Made by a program: the position numbers and the translations under genes
Shown here: positions 2,959 through 18,137 of the stretch, piece by piece
Layout of the letters: every line of letters begins with the position of its first letter
Numbering within the stretch: position 1 is the stretch's first letter
Assembly: GCA_001803205.1 (NCBI GenBank)
Contig: MHBE01000062.1
Span: forward strand, 1-51,311
Source of the DNA: Lentisphaerae bacterium GWF2_38_69
GTDB lineage: Bacteria; Verrucomicrobiota; Lentisphaeria; Victivallales; GWF2-38-69
Length of the DNA stretch: 51,311 nucleotides
Reading direction: 5' to 3'
The notes under the pieces: model-generated
What the model was told of the DNA's origin: nothing
The model's input: the letters and a program-made list of their open reading frames with translations, nothing else
Database searches by the model: none

Positions 2959-3990
2959 ATGAAACTTTTTCTAAGCGACAACTGTTCTGGAGTACATCCT
3001 GAAATAATCAAAGCTTTGTTAGGAGCAAATAACGAGCATTCGCCTTCTTATGGAGAAGACCCGATGACTGCAGAACTTCAGGAGAAAGTCAGAAAGCTTT
3101 TCAGCTATGACAGAATAAAAGTTTTTCCAGTCTGCTCAGGGACAGCTGCAAATATTGTGGCTCTGGCATCTTTGCTTCATTCCTATGAAGGAGTAATATG
3201 CACTGATACTGCTCATATCAATACATATGAGTGCGGTTCACTGGAAAAACTTACCGGCGGTAAAATCCTGCCAGTATCTAACAAGATGGGAAAGCTTGAA
3301 AAAACAGACGCGGAAGTTTATCTCGAATACCTTGGAGATGAACATTTAGTTCAGCCAAGAGCAGTTTCAATTTCTCAAACCACAGAATTTGGGACTGTTT
3401 ACTCTATGGAAGAGCTCAAAGTAATATCTGATTTTTGCAAAAAGAATGATTTCATATTCCATATGGATGGAGCTAGGTTGGCCAATGCAATGGTTTTTCT
3501 GAATAAGACACCTTATGAGATGGTAACTGAAATAGGAGTTGACCTTCTTACTTTCGGGGGTACGAAGAATGGTTTGATGAGTTGTGACCTGATAGTATCT
3601 TTTAACGAAAAGGCCTCAGGGAAAATGAGGTTTATAAGAAAACAATTCGGGCATCTGATGTCAAAAATGAGATTTGTTTCAGCCCAGTTTCTAGCATATC
3701 TTGACAATTCTCTCTATCTCAAACTGGCAGAACATTCTAATACTATGGCCATGTATTTTGAATCCAGATTAAAGGAATTTAATTTTATTGAGATGGCATA
3801 TCCTGTCGAGTCCAACATGTTATTTGTAAAACTTCCCAGAAAGATAACTCCTCCACTTATGAAAGAATTTCCATTCCATATTCTTGATTCGAAGAAGAAT
3901 ATGGCAAGATTTGTAACTTCATTCGATACAACTACCCTGGAAATAGATAGTTTTATAAATCTGCTATCGGAATTGAAAAGGGAATTGTAA
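2959..3990 (+). CDS. ltaE: Low-specificity L-threonine aldolase
   Basis: Cleaves L-threonine and L-allo-threonine to glycine and acetaldehyde using pyridoxal phosphate; cytoplasmic. The 343-residue protein has the family start (LFLSDNCSGVHPEII...SYGEDP), the cofactor-region HMDGARLANA and the PLP lysine in TFGGTKNGLM (about residue 200). Length is normal. It begins the plus-strand run and the permease starts 5 nt after its stop, so it is co-transcribed with an ABC importer. Acetaldehyde made here could feed the CoA-acylating aldehyde dehydrogenase encoded at 10.9-12.4 kb, but that link is inference. Confidence 0.88.
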   Translation: MKLFLSDNCSGVHPEIIKALLGANNEHSPSYGEDPMTAELQEKVRKLFSYDRIKVFPVCSGTAANIVALASLLHSYEGVICTDTAHINTYECGSLEKLTGGKILPVSNKMGKLEKTDAEVYLEYLGDEHLVQPRAVSISQTTEFGTVYSMEELKVISDFCKKNDFIFHMDGARLANAMVFLNKTPYEMVTEIGVDLLTFGGTKNGLMSCDLIVSFNEKASGKMRFIRKQFGHLMSKMRFVSAQFLAYLDNSLYLKLAEHSNTMAMYFESRLKEFNFIEMAYPVESNMLFVKLPRKITPPLMKEFPFHILDSKKNMARFVTSFDTTTLEIDSFINLLSELKREL

Positions 3991-3994
3991 CAGG

Positions 3995-4975
3995 ATGAGA
4001 TATATTTTTTTAAGAAAGTTTACTTTTTCTGTAACAATACTAATTTCTCTTCTTATATTCTACTGTTCCCTTTCTCTCGGCAATAGTTACATAAACATTG
4101 TTTCCTATCTCTCTCTCGGAGAACTTCAGAAGGAAATCGTTATAATGAGGTTAACGCGAATGATAATAGCTTTTACCGTGGGGGGAGCTTTGGCCGTGGC
4201 CGGGGCAGGGTACCAGGCTATTTTGCGTAATGTCCTGGCAGAACCCTTCATCCTTGGAATAAGCGGAGGTGCAAGTGTCGGGGCAGCGTGCGCCATTGCC
4301 TTAGGTGTTTATATTTTCGGGGCTTTAACTCTACCTATCTTCGCTTTTGCAGGCTCCCTGATTGTTTTGTTGCTTATTTTGTTTATGTCCAAAGGAGATG
4401 GAATTGAATATTCAAGCAATATAATTCTTAGTGGAGTTATACTTAGCACCATCACATCAAGCATAATGATGTTTATGATCAGTTATCTGAATATGGCTCA
4501 ACTAAACAGCATTACCTGGTGGCTTTTGGGCAGCCTTGAAACTGACAATTGGTTTCTGATAATACTTGCCGTATGTGTTGTTTTTTCAGGAGCTTTTATT
4601 CTTTTTCTGTATGGAAGAGAGATAAATGCCTGCTCAATGGGAGAAGAGGTAGGCTATTATCTTGGAATATCACCAGTGAAACTTGCGATAGTTGTGTTAG
4701 GAATTTCATCGCTGATGACTGCCTGTGTGGTTTCAGTTTCAGGCGTGATAGGTTTTGTAGGCCTGATTATTCCGCATATAGTCAGGAAGTTTGTCGGAGC
4801 CGACCACAGAAGGCTAATACCTTATGCGCTGGTATATGGAGGATTGTATCTGGTTTTCTGCGACACTGTGGCAAGAACTGTTATACACCCTCAGATTTTG
4901 CCTGTAGGAGTTGTTACAGCTCTTATCGGCGGACCTGTTTTTCTATGGATTTTGAATAGAAGGATTAAGGGATGA
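3995..4975 (+). CDS. FecCD/BtuC-family ABC transporter permease
   Basis: Inner-membrane permease of the iron-siderophore/heme/cobalamin class. The 326 residues are strongly hydrophobic with about nine to ten membrane segments. Hallmarks are MRLTRMIIAFTVGGALAVAG near the N-terminus, GFVGLIIPHIVR around 245-256 (the ATPase-contact region) and PVGVVTALIGGPVF at the end. It starts 5 nt after threonine aldolase and overlaps the ATPase gene by 4 nt (ATGA). No binding-protein gene of this class is adjacent, so the ligand (siderophore, heme, corrinoid) cannot be read from context. Confidence 0.9.
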   Translation: MRYIFLRKFTFSVTILISLLIFYCSLSLGNSYINIVSYLSLGELQKEIVIMRLTRMIIAFTVGGALAVAGAGYQAILRNVLAEPFILGISGGASVGAACAIALGVYIFGALTLPIFAFAGSLIVLLLILFMSKGDGIEYSSNIILSGVILSTITSSIMMFMISYLNMAQLNSITWWLLGSLETDNWFLIILAVCVVFSGAFILFLYGREINACSMGEEVGYYLGISPVKLAIVVLGISSLMTACVVSVSGVIGFVGLIIPHIVRKFVGADHRRLIPYALVYGGLYLVFCDTVARTVIHPQILPVGVVTALIGGPVFLWILNRRIKG

Positions 4976-5766
4976 TGGATAGAGGAGCGGAAAAACAAGA
5001 AGTACTGACGCTGAAGAATGTTACTTATGCCTATCCAAATGCAGATGCTGTTTTAAAAGAATTTGACCTATCGGTGGAGAAAGGTCAATTTCTGGGTATA
5101 ATCGGTCCCAGCGGAGCCGGAAAAACAACTATTTTCAGAGTGCTTTCGGGTTATCTCAAACCTCAAAAAGGTAAAGTACTGATCAAAGGCAAAGAATTAA
5201 AAGAGTTGTCTCATTCAGAACGAGCAAGAACTATGGCAATGGTTCCTCAGGGAATATATGCTGTTTTACCGTACACTGTCTGGCAGATTGTTGAGATGGG
5301 AAGGCTTTCAAGAAGTTCGAGAATATCCGGAATGGCATCTGACGATATAAGAAGAATCGAAGAAGCTCTGGATTTTGTAAAGATGACGAGATATTCAGCG
5401 CGATATTTTAATAGCCTGAGCGGAGGAGAAAAACAGAGAGTTCTAATAGCCATGTCTCTTGCTCAGGATCCCGAAATACTGCTTCTTGACGAGCCTACAG
5501 CTTCTCTTGATATCGGACTCAAATCGCATTTGATGAGTTTATTAAAGAAGTTAAACAGAGAAAAGGGCATAACCGTGGCAACCATTTCTCACGATATACA
5601 GCTTGCATCTTCCTTCTGCGATAAACTTGTCATGATAAAAAACGGCATGATTGTTTCTCATGGCACGGTGAAAGATGTTCTCAACTCTGATACAATTAGT
5701 AGGGTGTATTCGTGCGAGGCCGAAGTTTTTGAACATATGAATAAAATTTATATAGAAACAAAATAA
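4972..5766 (+). CDS. ABC transporter ATP-binding protein, FecE/BtuD type
   Basis: Energises the upstream permease. The 264-residue protein has Walker A GPSGAGKTT (about residue 45), Q-loop VPQG, signature LSGGEKQRV (about 148), Walker B ILLLDEPTASLD and the switch histidine in TISHDIQ. The gene starts inside the stop of the permease gene (4-nt overlap), showing translational coupling. It ends 13 nt before the first fused symporter, so the run may be a single transcript. Confidence 0.92.
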   Translation: MMDRGAEKQEVLTLKNVTYAYPNADAVLKEFDLSVEKGQFLGIIGPSGAGKTTIFRVLSGYLKPQKGKVLIKGKELKELSHSERARTMAMVPQGIYAVLPYTVWQIVEMGRLSRSSRISGMASDDIRRIEEALDFVKMTRYSARYFNSLSGGEKQRVLIAMSLAQDPEILLLDEPTASLDIGLKSHLMSLLKKLNREKGITVATISHDIQLASSFCDKLVMIKNGMIVSHGTVKDVLNSDTISRVYSCEAEVFEHMNKIYIETK

Positions 5767-5779
5767 TACTTTCCGGTAA

Positions 5780-8059
5780 ATGTCAACATTAAAATGGTAT
5801 AAAGAATTATCGCTCAGTAAAAAGATATATGTCTCTACTGTCTTTGGTTTTTGTATCGGGATGTTTTTTGGAGACAGATGTTCAGCTCTAGAAGATTTAA
5901 ATACTTCTTTTATCAGATTTTTTCAGATTGCCATTATTCCGTATATGACTTTCAGTATTGTTCATTCTATAGGAGCTCTGACAACTGAGCGGGCTAAAAG
6001 GGTAGGGAAAAAAGGCGGAATAGTCCTGATTTGTTTATGGGCTATAAGCATTTTTTATGCTTTTGGCCTGCAGTATTCATTCCCGAATATTGAGAGAAGC
6101 AAGTTCTTTCGCCCGGAAAACGCTTTAGCCAGCAGCGGTATAGATTTCTTCGATATGTTCATACCTTCTAACCCTTTTCACTCTTTTGCCAATGGCTATA
6201 TTCCTGCGATCGTCATATTCTGTATTCTTTTAGGAGTTGCTCTCATAAACCATAAGAACAAGGCAGGCATTGTTAAATCAGCAAAAATATGGTCCTCTCT
6301 GATGAGCGATATAAATGAATATGTGATGCTTCTGCTGCCATTGGGCGTATTGGTAATGTCAACATATACATTTGGCACATTGAGTTTCATGAAACTCAAA
6401 GGACTGCTTCTTTTTGTGGTAGCTTCGACTTTTTATTTGGTTTTTATATCAATGATTATTTACCCTTTCCTTATTTCAAGCGTAAGCAAATTTAATTACA
6501 GAAAGTTTCTTAACACTGCCATGCCTGCAGCTCTTATTGGTTTTACTACAGGAAGTGTATTTTTGTCTCTCCCTGTCATATATGATCAGATGTATAAATT
6601 TAATGAAGAAGAGCAAGGCTTTAAAGATATGCAGGATGCCAATCTTAATTATATTGAGAGAGGAAGAAATGCAATTAGCATTTTAGTCCCTCTGGCCTGG
6701 GTGGTGCCGGCCAGCTATAAGTTCCTTGTTATATTTTACATTGTTTTTGCTCATTGGTATTATGATAGGATATTTCCTTTCTCCGAGCAACTTATCTATT
6801 ACATAGGCGGTATTCCTTGCCTGTTCGGGAGTAATTCTGTCGTAGTTCCTTTTCTGCTAGATATGAGCGGCGGGATGATTCCCAATAAAGCTTATGATAT
6901 TTTCATGATTCTGTCCAGCTTTTTGGTGTATTTTAATAACGCCAATGGTTCTATATTCATCGTCGTCTGCACGATTCTTTGTTATTATTCATTATGCAAC
7001 AAACTAAAAATCCGCTGGTTCAAGCTTCTTATCCTATTAGGAATCAGTACTGTTTTCTTTATTATAGTTATGGGTTCTTTGAGCTTTTTAATGACAAAGT
7101 TCTTATCTGGCGATGACGAGGTCAAGGAAGAGCTTACTCACATGAATGTGGAACCTTACAACAAGCACTACTACGAGGAAATAAATGCGCGTTATTTAAC
7201 TTTTGATCAATATCATGAAATACCTTATCTATCTCCTGAAGAGCCTCTTTTGGATAAAATAGCCAGAACCAAGACTCTACAGGTAGGCTATGATCCAGAA
7301 GCAATACCTTTTGCATTTTTCAACAGTCAGAAAAAACTGGTAGGATATGATATTGACTTTATCAATACTATTGCGCAAAATCTCAGATGCAACACTATAG
7401 AATTTTATAAAATCGATAACTTTTTTATATATCAGGATTGTATAGCAAAAGGGACTTTATTAGACATATGTGTAGGCGGATATACATATATGGCCTATAC
7501 TGAAGGCGGCGTAATAACCTCTGCTCCTTACATGAAATACACCCCTGCAATAGTTATTCCTATGGAATACAAAGAACAGTATCCTGACCTGGCATCGGTA
7601 TTCACGAGCAATAACTTGTCTGTAGGGGTTCGGGTAAATCCCGATTACAAAGATCTGATGCCTGATAAACATTTAATAGGGCTCAAAAATTTCAATGAAT
7701 TTTATCAGGATCATAAAACAGATGCACTTCTTACATCTGCAGAAATAGCTTCAGCTACATGCATTTTGTATCATGGATACTGGGTGTACTATTATTCAGA
7801 GACTGACATAAAAATTTTTTATGCCTATCTTATGCCCTACGATAATAGATCTCGTTCATTCAGAGACATGGTAAATACATTGATTGATACTGCAAAGTGG
7901 GATGGTACTGCTCAGCAAAGATATGAATACTGGATAATGGGTGAAACTCAATATAAATTTGGCAGACCATGGTCTGTTTTGGACTGGCTCAAAAGTAAAA
8001 ACTTCTTTTTAGCGTCTACCAATCATAAGCCTAAAGAATCTAGCATGATTGATCAATAA
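5780..8059 (+). CDS. DAACS-type symporter fused to a C-terminal extracytoplasmic solute-binding domain (copy 1)
   Basis: A 759-residue fusion. Residues 1 to about 410 resemble cation:dicarboxylate/amino-acid symporters: many membrane segments, a hairpin-1-like stretch TTGSVFLSLPV near 255 and FNNANGS near 386 in the terminal transport helices. The usual NMDGT loop is absent; VVPASY (near 308) stands about where it should be. An extra hydrophobic helix (about 413-440) follows the symporter core and would carry the C-terminus across the membrane. After a linker, residues about 498-725 form a family-3 solute-binding domain (LQVGYDPEAIPF...LVGYDIDF), ending in GRPWSVLDWL. The domain lacks the TxxR-type arginine that usually grips an amino-acid carboxylate, so the ligand is unknown. 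Copy 2 follows 30 nt later. Fusion of a secondary transporter to its own binding protein is unusual. Confidence 0.8.
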   Translation: MSTLKWYKELSLSKKIYVSTVFGFCIGMFFGDRCSALEDLNTSFIRFFQIAIIPYMTFSIVHSIGALTTERAKRVGKKGGIVLICLWAISIFYAFGLQYSFPNIERSKFFRPENALASSGIDFFDMFIPSNPFHSFANGYIPAIVIFCILLGVALINHKNKAGIVKSAKIWSSLMSDINEYVMLLLPLGVLVMSTYTFGTLSFMKLKGLLLFVVASTFYLVFISMIIYPFLISSVSKFNYRKFLNTAMPAALIGFTTGSVFLSLPVIYDQMYKFNEEEQGFKDMQDANLNYIERGRNAISILVPLAWVVPASYKFLVIFYIVFAHWYYDRIFPFSEQLIYYIGGIPCLFGSNSVVVPFLLDMSGGMIPNKAYDIFMILSSFLVYFNNANGSIFIVVCTILCYYSLCNKLKIRWFKLLILLGISTVFFIIVMGSLSFLMTKFLSGDDEVKEELTHMNVEPYNKHYYEEINARYLTFDQYHEIPYLSPEEPLLDKIARTKTLQVGYDPEAIPFAFFNSQKKLVGYDIDFINTIAQNLRCNTIEFYKIDNFFIYQDCIAKGTLLDICVGGYTYMAYTEGGVITSAPYMKYTPAIVIPMEYKEQYPDLASVFTSNNLSVGVRVNPDYKDLMPDKHLIGLKNFNEFYQDHKTDALLTSAEIASATCILYHGYWVYYYSETDIKIFYAYLMPYDNRSRSFRDMVNTLIDTAKWDGTAQQRYEYWIMGETQYKFGRPWSVLDWLKSKNFFLASTNHKPKESSMIDQ

Positions 8060-8089
8060 TGGGAATAATAATTTAAGGCTATTTAAACT

Positions 8090-10351
8090 ATGAGAGTGCT
8101 CTCGTTTTATAGAAATCTTTCAACAAGCAGAAAAATATATTTGTCTGTTTTTGTCGGATTAGTGCTCGGCATGTTTTTTGGCAATTTATGTGAAGTTCTT
8201 GAACCGGTTAACACTCTCTTCATAAGATTATTTCAGATTGCAATCATCCCCTATATGATTTTCAGTATAATTCATTCGATAGGTTCTCTTACTGTAGAAA
8301 GAGCCAAAAGAGTAGGCAGAAAGGGAGGACTGGTTCTTATTTGTCTTTGGGCTGTAAGTATAATTTTTGCCTTTGGACTGCAGTTTTCTTTTCCGGATAT
8401 TCAGAGAAGCAAATTCTTCCGTCCTGATGGGGATATTCAAAGCAGCGGAATTAATTTTTTTGATTTATTCATACCTTCAAATCCTTTCTATTCTTTTGCC
8501 AACGGATACATACCGGCAATAGTGATATTTTGTATTCTTCTAGGAATAACTATGATAAAGCATCAGAATAAATCAAACATAGTAAGCTCTGCTCAGGTTT
8601 GGGCATCTCTTATGAATAATTTGAATGATCATATAATGCTTCTGCTGCCATTAGGCGTGCTGGTAATGTCGACTTTTACATTCGGAACTTTAAGTATAAT
8701 GAAGCTCAAAGGGATTCTTCTTTATATCCTTGCTTCGATTTTTTATATAGTTTTTATATCAATGATCATCTACCCTATAATTTTATCTGCTGCATGTTCA
8801 ATTAATTATAAAAAATTCCTTCACTTGATTATGCCCGCTGCTTTGATTGGATTTTCAACCGGAAGTGTTTTTCTTGCACTTCCGGTTATCTATAAACAAA
8901 TGTATAAGTTTAACGAAGAAAATAATGCATTTGAAGGAATCAGCGGAAACTATAAGGAACGGGGGCGAAATGCCATAAGCATACTGGTGCCTTTAGCCTG
9001 GGTGGTCCCTGCAAGTTACAAATTTTTAGTTATATTTTTTGTCGTCTTTTCATATTGGTACTATGATAGAGTGTTTCCTTACTCTAAACAGCTTCTCTAT
9101 TTTATTGGAGGAATTCCTTGTCTTTTTGGCAGCAATTCTGTGGTTGTGCCTTTTCTTCTCGAATTAAGCGGAGACATTCCGAACAGGACTTACGATATAT
9201 TCATGATCGTTTCCAGTTTTCTTGTATATTTCAACAATGCAAACGGAGCAGTATTTGTAATAGTAGTTACTATTCTCTGTTATTATTCTCTCAGTGACAG
9301 GTTAAAAATAAATTGGATTAAACTTCTTACTAATTTCTTTTTAAGTATCTTATTTTTTTGCTTTGTTATTGGAGGGTTAAGCATTCTGATGACAAAAATA
9401 CTTTCGGGAAATGACGAAGTTAAAGAGGAACTTACTCATATGAATGTGGAACCTTATAACCAGAAGTATTATGAAAATATTACCGCTGAATACTTATCAT
9501 TAGATCAGTATAGGCATCGCAGCAAATCCTCCTCTGAAGAACCTCTTCTAGACACAATAGTAAGAACTCAAATACTTCAAATAGGATATGAACCTGAAGC
9601 AATTCCTTTTTCTTTCTTCAACAGCGATGGAGTTCTTGTAGGATATGATATTGATTTTATTTATGATATAGCAGAGCAGTTGCACTGTAATAAAATTGAA
9701 TTCTATCCTATTTACAATTCCGTGCAATTCAAAGAATGTCTGGATAACGGCATTGTTCTGGATGTGGGTGTGGGAGGTCACAGATATACTGCTGACTCTG
9801 CGGGAGAGGCAATAACTTCAGACCCATATCTGGATTATATGCCTGCTATAGTTGTTCCTGTGACAGATAAAAAGAAGTATCCTGACTTTGAATCTGTTCT
9901 GGAAGACAAAGAGATAACGATAGGAAGGATAAAGTCTTGCTTTAAACCCTTTCTAAAAGGGAAAAATATCAAAGATCTGAATTCAATAAAGGAATATTAT
10001 ATAGATCGCGATGCATATGCTTTTATAACATCTGCTGAAATTGCTTCATCTATGGGGATAATCTACAAGGGATTCTGGGTATATTTTTATAAAGAATCAG
10101 ACATAAAGTTTTTTTATGCATACTATCTTAATTCGAGCCCTGATGCGGAGACTTTTCGTCATTTGATTAATACCTGGATAGATACCTGTTATAAAATAGG
10201 CTTGTCTGAAAAAAGATACAGATACTGGGTTATGGGGGAATCTGTTGAAAGTTCTAACAAAAAGCACTGGTCCGTATTGGAATGGCTTGAAGAAAACAAT
10301 TACTTTGTGGGAGAAAATGGACCGGAAAAACTCCCTCTTCTGGATCATTGA
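8090..10351 (+). CDS. DAACS-type symporter fused to a solute-binding domain (copy 2)
   Basis: A 753-residue tandem paralogue of the preceding gene, collinear over its whole length. Long near-identical stretches include NPF.SFANGYIPAIVIFCILLG, GGIPCLFGSNSVVVPFLL and DEVKEELTHMNVEPYN. The architecture is the same: symporter core, extra helix (about 410-440), linker, family-3 binding domain (LQIGYEPEAIPF near 500) and the WSVLEWL tail. The binding domains differ more than the membrane parts (GGHRYTADSAGE here, GGYTYMAYTEGG in copy 1), suggesting different ligand ranges. It starts 30 nt after copy 1 with only a weak AAGG ribosome-binding site, and ends facing the convergent STAS gene. Confidence 0.8.
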   Translation: MRVLSFYRNLSTSRKIYLSVFVGLVLGMFFGNLCEVLEPVNTLFIRLFQIAIIPYMIFSIIHSIGSLTVERAKRVGRKGGLVLICLWAVSIIFAFGLQFSFPDIQRSKFFRPDGDIQSSGINFFDLFIPSNPFYSFANGYIPAIVIFCILLGITMIKHQNKSNIVSSAQVWASLMNNLNDHIMLLLPLGVLVMSTFTFGTLSIMKLKGILLYILASIFYIVFISMIIYPIILSAACSINYKKFLHLIMPAALIGFSTGSVFLALPVIYKQMYKFNEENNAFEGISGNYKERGRNAISILVPLAWVVPASYKFLVIFFVVFSYWYYDRVFPYSKQLLYFIGGIPCLFGSNSVVVPFLLELSGDIPNRTYDIFMIVSSFLVYFNNANGAVFVIVVTILCYYSLSDRLKINWIKLLTNFFLSILFFCFVIGGLSILMTKILSGNDEVKEELTHMNVEPYNQKYYENITAEYLSLDQYRHRSKSSSEEPLLDTIVRTQILQIGYEPEAIPFSFFNSDGVLVGYDIDFIYDIAEQLHCNKIEFYPIYNSVQFKECLDNGIVLDVGVGGHRYTADSAGEAITSDPYLDYMPAIVVPVTDKKKYPDFESVLEDKEITIGRIKSCFKPFLKGKNIKDLNSIKEYYIDRDAYAFITSAEIASSMGIIYKGFWVYFYKESDIKFFYAYYLNSSPDAETFRHLINTWIDTCYKIGLSEKRYRYWVMGESVESSNKKHWSVLEWLEENNYFVGENGPEKLPLLDH

Positions 10352-13181: not shown

Positions 13182-15151
13182 ATGCCATTTTTTAACTTTA
13201 AAGTAAAGAAATTTTTTGAAAGTTTTTTAAAAAACCGCAGTATAGTATTCAAACTTAATACTCTGATGTTAGCTACCAGCTCTGTGATTCTTATCGTTGC
13301 TTTGCTTTTTAATTATCATTTCACTAAAAAACTCTTGTGGATATTATGCAGAAATCCAATTCAGGAAAAAATAACTTATCGGCATTGTTGGCTTCAATGG
13401 TTAAAAATAATCAGCATATTTTTGGCAGTTCACTAGCATTTGAACCATATGAATTTAAGGAAGAAATTGAATTTTATTCTCCATATGCCTACGAGACAAA
13501 ATATGGCATAAAGATATATAATGAATCAATTGTAACTATTGATTACACTAAACTTGACTGGTACAGCAATCTGAAAGATGGAAAACAAGATTACTGGGCT
13601 GAACCTTACAGAGAAGAGTTAACCAAAAAAGAGCTTATTACATACTCTGTTCTTTTTTTTCAGAAGATAAAAGCATAAAAAAAATAAAGGGTGTTGCAAG
13701 AGTTGATATTTCTCTTCAATGGCTTTCAAAAATCATAAGAGAAATAGATAATAATGGAAAATTTTACGCAATGATAATAACGAAAGAAGGCAATCTTATA
13801 TCTCGCCCTTTTCTAGGCGACTTTGTATCTCTCCCTTATTTGGAAAAACTCATTTCACGCTCTTATATAGGCAGCTATATAAGCTCTTATTTGAAAAACT
13901 ATATATCTTACTTTTATATAGAAAGCCTTAAACCAGAAAACCTGTTTGATTACGCTAAAATCACCAATAATAAAAACCTTGAAAGACTCGGACGTAAAAT
14001 GATTGCCGGCAAGTCTCAGTTTATACATATTTATTCTGAATTCGTCGGTGATTCCGGCTGGCTATATTTTGCACCGATTGGAAATAGAGGCTGGTCTAAA
14101 GCTTTGTTCTTTCCTGACAACGAATTGAGAAAATCTCTTAAAGAACTAAACAGTATAATAGTCTTTGTCTGTCTAAGTAGTAACTGCTCTGCTCATGCTT
14201 CTTATTTTCTTTATAACCAGAAAATTGATAGGATCTGTAATTAGATTGACACATTCCATGAACTTAATAAGCAACGGAAATCTTGATATGGAAATCGCTA
14301 TTTCTAATAGCAATGATGAAGTAGGAATTCTTACCCGTTCTTTCAGAGATATGCAGAACTCACTGAAAGATTATATCGAGAATCTCAAGAGAACTACTGC
14401 AGAGAAAGAAAATTACCTTACAGAGCTCAAATTAGCCTCGTCAATTCAGAATTCCATTCTTCCTGATATAACTGATAAATTTAAGAGTGACTTGTTTGAA
14501 CTATATGTCAAACTAATTCCTGCCAAAGATATATCTGGTGACTTCTATGATTTCTTCTATGTTGATAATCAGACTATTGCTATTACTGTCGCAGATGTTT
14601 CAGGTAAAGGTTTTTCTGCGGCTTTCTTTATGCGCATGGCAAAATTTGCCATAAAAAATATTTGCAATTCTTCAAAAAACCTGACTCCCGGAGAGGTGTT
14701 GACTGTTGTAAACGAGCTGATAATTTCTGAAAATGTTTCAAGTATGTTTTTAACTTGTTATTTAGCCTTCTACAACATCAATACAGGACTTTTCAGATAT
14801 ACAAACGCAGGACATCATGATCTGATACATGTCTTAAACAATGGAAATATCGAAGAAATGGGGATGATGAGGATTCCTTCAGTGGGTTTTTTCCAAAAAA
14901 CAAAATATCAGAATAAAGAATTTATTCTAGGTAAAGGAGAAATGATAGCCATTTTTACAGATGGAATACCAGAAGCTTCAAATTCAGAAGCTGTGCAGTT
15001 TGGCAATGAAAGAATAAATGAACATTTTTCTTCGCAATATAAAGAAAAACTGTCCGATATAGGCGATTCTCTCATAGGAAAAGTTCTTGAATTTGAAGAA
15101 GGTCTGAGATTTGATGATATCACTATCCTGATCTTAAAACGAAAAGAATAA
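13182..15151 (+). pseudogene. Broken dCACHE-HAMP-SpoIIE phosphatase (duplicate copy 1)
   Basis: Homologous along its length to the intact gene that follows, but with at least three lesions. After YHFTKKLL (near 13335) about 35 codons of the sensor domain are deleted and the frame shifts. At a run of eight T (near 13658) one base is missing relative to the intact copy. Near 14180, in the second membrane helix, the frame changes again. The last part (14195-15151) is an open HAMP-phosphatase segment with its metal-binding aspartates (ISGDFYDFF, VADVSGKG, FTDGIPEA, FDDIT) intact and could still be made as a fragment. The sensor region also has extra repeated Tyr/Ser-rich sequence near 13810-13930. 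It retains an AGGA ribosome-binding site that the intact copy lacks. Confidence 0.8.
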
Positions 15152-15357
15152 TATTTATAGCACTGATTTTTTTGCTTCTGTTTGTTGTTTATTTTTTGAT
15201 TTGCAATTCACTGTTTCCGTAATGCTCTATTTTTAAGGAAGTCTCTTGAATGGAATTTAAGAAAAGTTATACTCAATTATGAAGTTATTAAGACAGGAGT
15301 AGTTTTTACAATATGGAATGTAATCATGTATAACATTCATTTCTTTATTAATAGTTT

Positions 15358-17319
15358 ATGTCATTATTGAACTTAATATTTAAAAATTACATTGTTAGTT
15401 TTTTTAAAAAACGCGGAATTGCTTTTAAACTCAATAATCTAATATTAGTTGTCAGTTCAGTGATTTTTATAGTTGCTTTGTTTATTAATTATCATTTTAC
15501 GAAAATATTGTTAGTGAAGGATATTGAGAATCAAGCTGAAACGATTGCTAGAATTACTGCTGGAGAGATAGAACGCATTTTTATATCTTCCGAAGAGGTA
15601 GCAAAATTTCTTGTTTCGATTATGCAAAAGTCTGACTTGGGTAAGAATAACCTGGCAGTCATGCTGGCTTCAATTGTTGAAAATCATCAGCAGCTTTATG
15701 GTGGTTCACTAGCATTTGAGCCATATGAATATGACCAAAAAATTAAGTTTTATTCTCCTTATGCTTACGAGACAAGAAATGGAATAAAAGTTATAAATCA
15801 GCTCAGTGAAACAACAGATTACACAAAATTCCCGTGGTTCAGCAATCTGAAGGATGGAAAGCAAGAATATTGGACTGAGCCTTACAGAGAAGAGATAACA
15901 AAAAAAGAGCTTATTACCTACTCTGTTCCGTTTTTTTCCGAAGTTGAAGGCGTGAAAAAATTAAAAGGTGTTGCAAGAGTAGACATATCTCTTAAATGGC
16001 TTTCAAAAATTATAAAAGAAATTGATTCCAGCGAAAAATTTTACGCAATGATAATATCGAAAGATGGCAGTCTTATATATTACCCGTTTTCTGATAAGAA
16101 AGAACTAGACAACATATTTGAATATGCAAAGAAGAATAAGGAGCAATCTCTGGAAGAACTTGCCAGGGAGATGGCCTCAGGGAAAACTAATTTTCTGTAT
16201 ACATATGTTCCACTGCTGAAAGAAACAGCATGGTTATACTATGCTCCCATTGGTCATAAAGGTTGGGCTATCGCACTTTTTTATCCGGACAAGGAACTCA
16301 AGAAAAATTTAGCTCAAATCAATATTTTAATGATTACAATTTGTTTGCTTGGAATTGTTCTGCTTATGCTTCTTATTTTCTTTATAACCAGAAAATTGAT
16401 AGGCCCTATAATTAGATTGACGCATTCAGTAAAATTAATAGGCAGAGGAAATCTTAATTGGGAAATTGCTACTTCCAATAGCAATGATGAAGTAGGAATT
16501 CTTACCCGTTCTTTCAAAGATATGCAAGATTCACTGAAAGAATATATCGAGAATCTCAAGAGAACTACAGCAGAGAAAGAAACTTACCTGACAGAGCTTA
16601 AAATAGCCTCAACAATTCAGAATTCCATTCTTCCTGATATAACTGATGAATTTAAGCGTGACCTTTATGAATTATATGTCAAGCTAGTTCCTGCAAAAGA
16701 CATATCCGGAGACTTCTATGATTTCTTCTATATTGATAATCAGACTATTGCCATTACAGTCGCAGATGTTTCCGGCAAAGGTTTTCCTGCGGCTTTCTTT
16801 ATGAGCATGGCAAAATTTGCCATAAAAAATATATGCAATTCTTCTAAAAATCTGACTCCTGGAGAGATTTTGACTGTAGTAAATGAACTGATAATTTCTG
16901 AAAAAGTCTCAAATATGTTTTTTACCTGTTATTTAGTCTTCTACAACATAAATACCGGTCGTTTCAGGTATGCAAACGCAGGGCATCATGATCTGATACA
17001 TGTCTTAAGCAACGGAAAAATCGAAGAAAAGGGGATGATGGGGATCCCTCCGGTAGGTTTTTTCCAAAAAACAAAATACCAGGATCAAGAATTCATTCTA
17101 GGGAAAGGTGAAATAGTAGCTCTTTTTACAGACGGAATACCGGAAGCTTCAAATTTAGAAGATGTGCAGTTTGGCAATAAAAAAATAAACGAACATTTTT
17201 CTTTGAAATATAAAGAAAAACTTTCCGATATTGGTGATTCTTTAGTAGCAAATGTATTAGACTTTGAGGAACATCACAGATTCGACGACATTACATTGCT
17301 GATATTAAAACGCAATTAA
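15358..17319 (+). CDS. Membrane sensor phosphatase: dCACHE, HAMP and SpoIIE/PP2C domains
   Basis: A 653-residue receptor phosphatase. One membrane helix (about 27-46), an external dCACHE-like sensor (about 50-305, including SLAFEPYEY and VARVDISLKWLSKII), a second helix (322-344), HAMP (about 345-400), a coiled-coil linker and a PP2C/SpoIIE domain (about 435-653). Metal ligands are present: SGDFYDFF (Asp near 452), VADVSGKG, FTDGIPEA and FDDIT near the C-terminus. Such proteins sense a small molecule outside the cell and dephosphorylate STAS proteins inside. Two STAS genes lie 2.5-4.7 kb away. No Shine-Dalgarno is evident before ATG15358, in contrast to the dead upstream copy. Confidence 0.87.
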   Translation: MSLLNLIFKNYIVSFFKKRGIAFKLNNLILVVSSVIFIVALFINYHFTKILLVKDIENQAETIARITAGEIERIFISSEEVAKFLVSIMQKSDLGKNNLAVMLASIVENHQQLYGGSLAFEPYEYDQKIKFYSPYAYETRNGIKVINQLSETTDYTKFPWFSNLKDGKQEYWTEPYREEITKKELITYSVPFFSEVEGVKKLKGVARVDISLKWLSKIIKEIDSSEKFYAMIISKDGSLIYYPFSDKKELDNIFEYAKKNKEQSLEELAREMASGKTNFLYTYVPLLKETAWLYYAPIGHKGWAIALFYPDKELKKNLAQINILMITICLLGIVLLMLLIFFITRKLIGPIIRLTHSVKLIGRGNLNWEIATSNSNDEVGILTRSFKDMQDSLKEYIENLKRTTAEKETYLTELKIASTIQNSILPDITDEFKRDLYELYVKLVPAKDISGDFYDFFYIDNQTIAITVADVSGKGFPAAFFMSMAKFAIKNICNSSKNLTPGEILTVVNELIISEKVSNMFFTCYLVFYNINTGRFRYANAGHHDLIHVLSNGKIEEKGMMGIPPVGFFQKTKYQDQEFILGKGEIVALFTDGIPEASNLEDVQFGNKKINEHFSLKYKEKLSDIGDSLVANVLDFEEHHRFDDITLLILKRN

Positions 17320-17501: not shown

Positions 17502-18137
17502 ATGTATCTTATAAAAAAATATAATAAATGGTCATTGAGCCAGAAGATTTACTGCGCAACTGCTTTCGGTTTCGCTTTAGGCATGTTTTTCGGGATAAGA
17601 TGCGAAGTGCTTAGTGCGTTTAACTCTGTGTTCATCAATTTTTTTCAGATTACTATCATTCCTTATATGATTTTCAGCATAATTAAGTCTATTGATTCTC
17701 TCTTTTATCTCTTCTTTATTTCAATGATAATATATCCGGTAATTATGAACAGATTTTACGGGATGAAGTATAGAAAATTTCTGGATTATTCGATTTCTGC
17801 AGGAATTGTTGCTTTTACTACCGGTAATGTATTTCTTGCACTTCCTGTAATATATGAACTTATGTATAAAGACGATTATTTAAAGAAATTATTATCGAGA
17901 GTAAATAATAATGATATTTTGAAAATGGTACAATTGGAAAACTATGACGCTTTTTATCTAGATCATAAAGTTGATGCATTGCTGACCACAGCCACGAAAA
18001 GATATGAATACTGGATAGAAGGCAAGACAGATGATATCGCTGTAGGCAGGCCTTGGTCTGTTCTTGACTGGCTTTTGGGCGAGAAGTACAAAATTAAAAA
18101 ATATGAACAGAAAACTATTCACTCACACGGATTCTAG
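17502..18137 (+). pseudogene. In-frame internally deleted fused symporter (copy 4, 211 residues)
   Basis: An open 211-codon frame made of collinear pieces of the approximately 755-residue transporters. The N-terminal two helices (SLSQKIYCATAFGFALGMFF...FFQITIIPYMIFSIIKSID) jump to FISMIIYP...RKFLDYSI...TTGNVFLALPVIYELMYK, then to LENYDAFYLDHKVDALLTTA, then to the C-terminal tail RYEYWIEGKT...GRPWSVLDWL. About 150 residues, then about 300 residues, then a shorter segment are missing, yet the frame is open throughout. It cannot form a symporter or a complete binding domain. Preserved frame could be chance or could mean a retained miniature protein. Confidence 0.65.

Follow-up and report, generated by a model that had tools for sequence, protein, structure and literature searches.

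The stretch of DNA from Lentisphaerae bacterium GWF2_38_69 analyzed here (contig MHBE01000062.1, 51,311 nucleotides, below called the window) carries two adjacent genes whose products join, in one chain, a DAACS/SLC1-fold transporter core, an additional transmembrane helix and a periplasmic family-3 solute-binding domain. The residues which bind sodium ions and substrate in known members of this fold are replaced in all 32 members of the protein family examined by a different set. We propose, at about an even chance, that the fusion works in the manner of a TRAP system, as an "elevator with a tethered operator" whose ligand is something other than an ordinary amino acid. The genes and their surroundings are listed below.

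2959-3990: beta-eliminating-lyase-type PLP enzyme, upstream of the fusions
3995-4975, plus strand: FecCD-type permease, upstream of the fusions
4972-5766, plus strand: ABC ATPase, upstream of the fusions
5780-8059, plus strand: copy 1, DAACS-core/SBP_bac_3 fusion of 759 amino acids (open reading frame, Pfam, AlphaFold2 model)
8090-10351, plus strand: copy 2, paralogous fusion of 753 amino acids (open reading frame, Pfam)
17502-18137, plus strand: decayed third fusion copy, open reading frame of 211 amino acids with three in-frame pieces matching copy 1

Both fusion genes are intact open reading frames, and their products are 62% identical. A domain search against Pfam identified two domains in each chain, as originally predicted: PF00375 (sodium:dicarboxylate symporter, SDF) at residues 12-273 of copy 1 and 15-273 of copy 2, with E values of 2.6e-41 and 1.3e-40, and PF00497 (family-3 solute-binding protein, SBP_bac_3) at residues 500-719 and 496-714, with E values of 1.5e-10 and 3.1e-10. 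All of these matches exceed the Pfam gathering scores. Gaps of 13 and 30 bases precede the genes of copy 1 and copy 2, respectively, and the PLP enzyme, the FecCD-type permease, the ABC ATPase and both fusions look like one operon, presumably co-transcribed, in which the fusions come last. The permease and ATPase genes (3995-5766, plus strand) are without a recognised binding protein among the adjoining genes scanned. Further downstream, the decayed third copy consists of pieces equivalent to residues 3-67, 215-274 and 710-746 of copy 1; since these form a single open frame of 211 amino acids, the internal deletions preserved the frame. Upstream of it lies a tandem of similar phosphatase-type regulator genes (13337-17319, plus strand), the second of which (15358-17319) is intact while the first is split into three open reading frames (13337-13678, 13771-14244 and 14195-15151) and apparently broken. 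An Rfam search of the window gave no match.

To describe the architecture of the protein we used an AlphaFold2 model of copy 1, calculated as a monomer from 32 family sequences (mean pLDDT 81.3, pTM 0.69). The resulting elements, together with their equivalents in copy 2, are as follows.

5804-7000, plus strand: copy 1 DAACS/SLC1-fold core, residues 9-407 (TM1-6, HP1, TM7, HP2, TM8)
7016-7105, plus strand: copy 1 additional transmembrane helix TM9, residues 413-442 (DSSP on the model, hydropathy, flanking charges)
7247-7936, plus strand: copy 1 periplasmic SBP_bac_3 domain, residues 490-719 (Pfam, Foldseek)
9314-9403, plus strand: copy 2 TM9, residues 409-438 (alignment with copy 1)
9575-10231, plus strand: copy 2 SBP_bac_3 domain, residues 496-714 (Pfam)

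Residues 9-407 of the model superpose on EAAT3 (8ctc) with a Z score of 36 and an rmsd of 2.5 over 361 aligned residues, and GltPh, GltTk and ASCT2 superpose on the same core. As judged from these superpositions, the core of copy 1 is a complete DAACS/SLC1 fold, in agreement with the DAACS fold that had been proposed for the N-terminal part. Of the 387 positions of the Pfam SDF model, only the first 268 are matched, up to HP1, because the region from HP1 to TM8 has strongly diverged. By fold and profile the core nevertheless belongs to the DAACS/SLC1 superfamily. The C-terminal domain gave a Foldseek TM-score of 0.82 (by target) with AncCDT-1 (5t0w).

An extra hydrophobic helix after the core had been placed at about residues 413-440, and the model assigns it to residues 413-442. 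The same order of elements including TM9, here at residues 403-431, was obtained in the model of a protein from the sister clade. In DAACS transporters TM8 ends with a cytoplasmic C-terminus. The loop between TM8 and TM9 of copy 1 contains three basic and no acidic residues, whereas the 50 residues after TM9 contain 3 basic and 12 acidic ones. Together with the cytoplasmic end of TM8 these charges place the binding domain outside, as expected in the original prediction, and not in the cytoplasm. The charge contrast across TM9 is weaker in the sister clade, owing to basic residues after TM9 in several members. Since the genome encodes an Omp85 protein and the cell is thus a diderm, outside means the periplasm. 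By the positive-inside charge rule and the model, the binding domain is therefore periplasmic.

The survey for the same fusion that had been suggested along with the prediction demonstrated that the tandem is a small part of a larger family. In the genome of 3.1 Mb (66 contigs) we identified nine intact full-length fusions, namely the two in the window, six close relatives and a divergent one with a frame of 732 amino acids, and in addition a truncated copy and the decayed one in the window. The predicted pair is thus real, and with seven further intact copies it accounts for two of nine. The divergent ninth copy (L083:3183-5363; G000:C17:3246-5366) has a long branch and carries TGPSM instead of PASYK in TM7; it possibly has a different function. 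Fusions were present in 20 of the 197 genomes of the class, two of which contain only a truncated or disrupted fusion gene, and in 16 of 288 genomes sampled across the phylum (14 of the 16 within the class). In one genome of the class the gene (L040/L042; G067:C156) is broken by stops and a change of frame. A scan of named genomes gave at least two loci, which do not enter these frequencies, and added a metagenome-assembled genome labelled Negativicutes; 298 other genomes of the phylum of that assembly contained no fusion. Full-length relatives sharing most features were also identified on plasmid records, in Pseudoalteromonas xiamenensis (WP_308362721.1) and in Halioglobus pacificus; viral contigs yielded no relative. 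As far as these partial genome samples reach across bacteria, the family spans at least two phyla and extends to Pseudomonadota. No description of the fusion was found in open-licence PMC papers, with a report elsewhere possible, and the family is apparently undescribed.

Both PF00375 and PF00497 matched in all 32 family members scanned, and the two halves appear inseparable. Using a profile of the membrane half, the intact and truncated fusions in the 197 genomes scored 407-549 bits. One disrupted gene gave 316 and 186 bits for its two pieces, and the other stand-alone DAACS proteins of the same genomes reached at most 106 bits; a stand-alone form of the fusion-type core was not found in these genomes. 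Trees of the core and of the binding domain show the same main clades, in agreement with a single ancient fusion event after which both halves were passed on together.

The core was then compared with GltPh, in which Na+ is bound by [S/T]92-93, N310, [M/S]311, [D/E]312 and [D/E]405 and substrate by T314, D394, R397 and N401 (PMC12668577). The GltPh and GlnBP reference sequences were checked against the PDB. The relevant positions in copy 1 are the following.

6038-6040, plus strand: Trp87, at the position of S93 in the Na3 site of GltPh; Trp in 10 of 10 proteins of the window clade
6707-6721, plus strand: PASYK, residues 310-314 in TM7, at the place of NMDGT
6902-6991, plus strand: TM8, residues 375-404, uncharged throughout; Asn386-Asn387 invariant; D394, R397, N401 and D405 not kept

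In all 32 fusions the Na+/substrate pattern of GltPh (NMDGT, D394, R397, N401, D405, T92/S93 and the HP2 tip) is replaced. The NMDGT motif reads P-x-x-x-K/Q/R in 31 of the 32, with PASYK in the window clade, and the Thr/Ser pair of TM3 has become a hydrophobic residue followed by Trp in most. The serine run of HP1 is lost, and the tip of HP2, the outer gate in GltPh, is about six residues shorter. The register of TM8 against GltPh is uncertain, a second alignment having placed this helix differently. A switch to known proton coupling was not detected either: of its signature, a hydrophobic residue at 92, L311 and N405 (PMC12668577), the last two occur together in none of the 32 fusions. Seven stand-alone DAACS proteins from the same class, one of them from the same genome, served as controls in the same alignment, and all seven keep N310, M311, D394 and N401 plus most of the other residues. 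The change at the NMDGT site is less drastic in the sister clade (e.g. FNFPDAGK) than in the window clade, and the sister clade could retain some polar function there. The original term "DAACS-like symporter" thus holds for the fold; the symporter in the DAACS sense does not stand, and with the stand-alone proteins as controls a canonical DAACS symporter was rejected on its residues. Since the core fails on the residues that define ion-coupled transport, the name Na+:dicarboxylate symporter is unsuitable, and the annotation of the Pseudoalteromonas relative as "cation:dicarboxylase symporter family transporter" is probably wrong.

The rewritten site is conserved. Within the ten members of the window clade, the site columns in HP1-TM8 have a mean pairwise identity of 0.89 compared with 0.59 in the surrounding core, and none of 10,000 random sets of columns was as conserved. 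This difference argues that the transport site is in use and not decaying, and a dead transporter core is accordingly disfavoured. For the binding pocket the corresponding value was 0.34 against 0.39 in the whole binding domain; 31% of random sets were as low, so that the pocket is not significantly more variable than the rest of the domain and diversifying change is not claimed. One reading of these data is that the core does a constant job and that the copies vary in what the binding domain recognises.

The residues of the binding pocket were compared with GlnBP, and those that bind an amino acid are mostly missing in the fusions. Asp157, which holds the alpha-amino group, is replaced in all members except, by alignment, L008, in most cases by Ser or Thr. 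Arg75, the residue for the alpha-carboxylate, is missing from the genome's eight closely related copies and from L009, but most of the sister clade and L010 retain it. R75 and D157 occur together in none of the members. The acidic residue for the amino group is thus lost from both halves of the protein (L008 excepted by alignment), which makes an ordinary alpha-amino acid improbable as the ligand; with so many of the GlnBP-type residues missing, even ligand binding is putative.

The neighbours of the other copies share no common theme and give no consistent pointer to an imported nutrient. They comprise RND efflux genes, a topoisomerase, radical SAM and serine-biosynthesis-like genes, thiC, EPSP synthase and HisRS, and an assignment of the substrate from such disparate genes was dropped. 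In one genus of the class (L070 and L071; G070 and G071) the fusion lies about 30-45 bases downstream of thiC. A riboswitch near thiC was considered as a clue and discarded, as the 13 regions searched yielded tRNAs only. One copy (L078:546-11803) has an RND efflux/HlyD gene pair on either side, all on the same strand.

Taken together, we favour a model in which the single chain would form an elevator-type transporter of the DAACS/SLC1 fold whose ninth helix returns the C-terminus across the membrane. TM9 would anchor the Venus-flytrap domain on the periplasmic side, separated from the outer gate by a linker of about 50 residues, and by analogy this domain would most likely capture the ligand and operate the elevator like the separate P subunit of a TRAP transporter. 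This assumes that the protein transports, that the direction is import and that the ligand moves from the binding domain to the core. Coupling would probably not proceed via the classical Na+ sites, judging from the residues found there, and as a speculation the conserved basic or amide residue at the position of T314 (Lys, Gln or Arg; Lys314 in copy 1) may bind an anionic substrate or take part in proton coupling. The presence of two domains per chain, the fold, TM9, the topology, the inseparable halves and the conserved rewritten site all support this model. It has to account for the fact that none of the known DAACS ion and substrate ligands is kept, so that transport itself is putative, and for the shortened HP2 tip, the neighbours without a nutrient pointer and the missing pocket residues.

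The main rival is a receptor derived from a transporter (transceptor), in which the binding domain would sense and a non-transporting core would signal inward, perhaps to a partner, in the way of DctA with DcuS. In its favour, none of the ion or substrate ligands known from DAACS proteins is left, a constant core site with variable pockets would correspond to many inputs and one output, and unions of transporter and sensor exist in DctA with DcuS (PMC8307970) and in the SLC5/STAC histidine kinases (PMC9100948). However, the fusions contain no cytoplasmic signalling domain, a kinase, chemotaxis or cyclase gene was not recognised as a signalling partner among the neighbours scanned, and a mere scaffold would not need so highly conserved a site. 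We therefore regard the transceptor as unlikely, though worth serious consideration.

A ligand-gated transporter or channel, in which the binding domain would open a DAACS-derived path for another species, for example an ion, appears to us less probable still. SLC1 transporters carry an anion conductance, and the binding domain shares its origin with the ligand-binding domain of ionotropic glutamate receptors; four of the 32 members also match the corresponding model PF10613. A core site that stays constant while the pockets vary would fit this alternative too. PF10613 and PF00497 are, however, related models, so that such a match is expected by homology, and there is no direct sign of a pore.

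Even more doubtful is an ordinary Na+-coupled dicarboxylate or amino-acid DAACS symporter with an accessory capture domain. The fold, the Pfam family and the annotated name of the Pseudoalteromonas relative speak for it, but NMDGT, T92/S93, D394, R397, N401, D405 and the HP2 tip, most of which the stand-alone DAACS proteins keep, are missing, TM8 of copy 1 is uncharged, and the Arg and Asp that bind amino acids in the binding domain are lost in the clade. A misassembly, frameshift or chance fusion can be practically dismissed, because nine intact copies in the genome, the match to both Pfam models in every member scanned, the occurrence in 20 of the 197 class genomes and full-length relatives in many genomes, some of them on a single contig, show that the fusion is neither a chance nor a sequencing join.

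Among secondary transporters, TRAP systems are the best-documented case of dependence on a binding protein, and their parts are normally separate. The way in which a binding protein drives an ion-coupled elevator is described as poorly understood (PMC9971032). One chain with both parts on the well-studied SLC1 elevator fold would make that question testable, and the family is accessible to experiment through its members in strains of Pseudoalteromonas xiamenensis and Halioglobus pacificus. The family would also represent a natural experiment in SLC1 evolution, in which the fold was kept and the known ion and substrate ligands were swapped for a new conserved set. We give only a small chance to the boldest interpretation, a distinct class of single-chain, binding-protein-operated membrane proteins of the SLC1 fold with a transport site and coupling unlike those of any known SLC1 protein, in the extreme a glutamate-transporter core gated through a ligand-binding domain of the glutamate-receptor type.

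Compared with known systems, the fusions have the core fold including HP1, TM7, HP2 and TM8 in common with the DAACS/SLC1 family (GltPh, GltTk, EAATs, ASCT2, DctA; PF00375), but the known residues for Na+ and substrate have all been replaced in them, as has the HP2 tip, and TM9 and the periplasmic binding domain are added. The C-terminal domain belongs by fold and sequence to the family of GlnBP, AncQR and AncCDT (amino-acid-binding proteins and cyclohexadienyl dehydratases), although nearly all fusions have another residue in place of GlnBP Asp157 and Arg75 is absent in the eight closely related copies of the window clade. SLC5/STAC kinases and DctA-DcuS likewise link a transporter core to a sensor (PMC9100948, PMC8307970); these add a cytoplasmic kinase, whereas the fusions add a periplasmic ligand-binding domain with no kinase seen. 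GlnPQ-type ABC importers, of which the structure 6h30 is among the listed homologues, also tether a family-3 binding domain to a membrane domain in one chain, but the fusions have no ATPase and a secondary-transporter fold. The resemblance to TRAP transporters (SiaPQM) would be one of function: like these, the fusions would join an elevator of the secondary-transporter type to a periplasmic binding protein of its own. The TRAP M subunit shares the VcINDY/DASS fold, in contrast to the SLC1 fold, the other binding-protein family and the lack of a Q subunit in the fusions, in which Pfam identified SDF and SBP_bac_3 and neither TRAP membrane domains nor a TRAP-type binding protein. The parts of TRAP systems are usually separate and Q-P fusions are rare (PMC8276074); TRAP transporters work as an "elevator-with-an-operator" in which transport depends strictly on the binding protein (PMC9971032).
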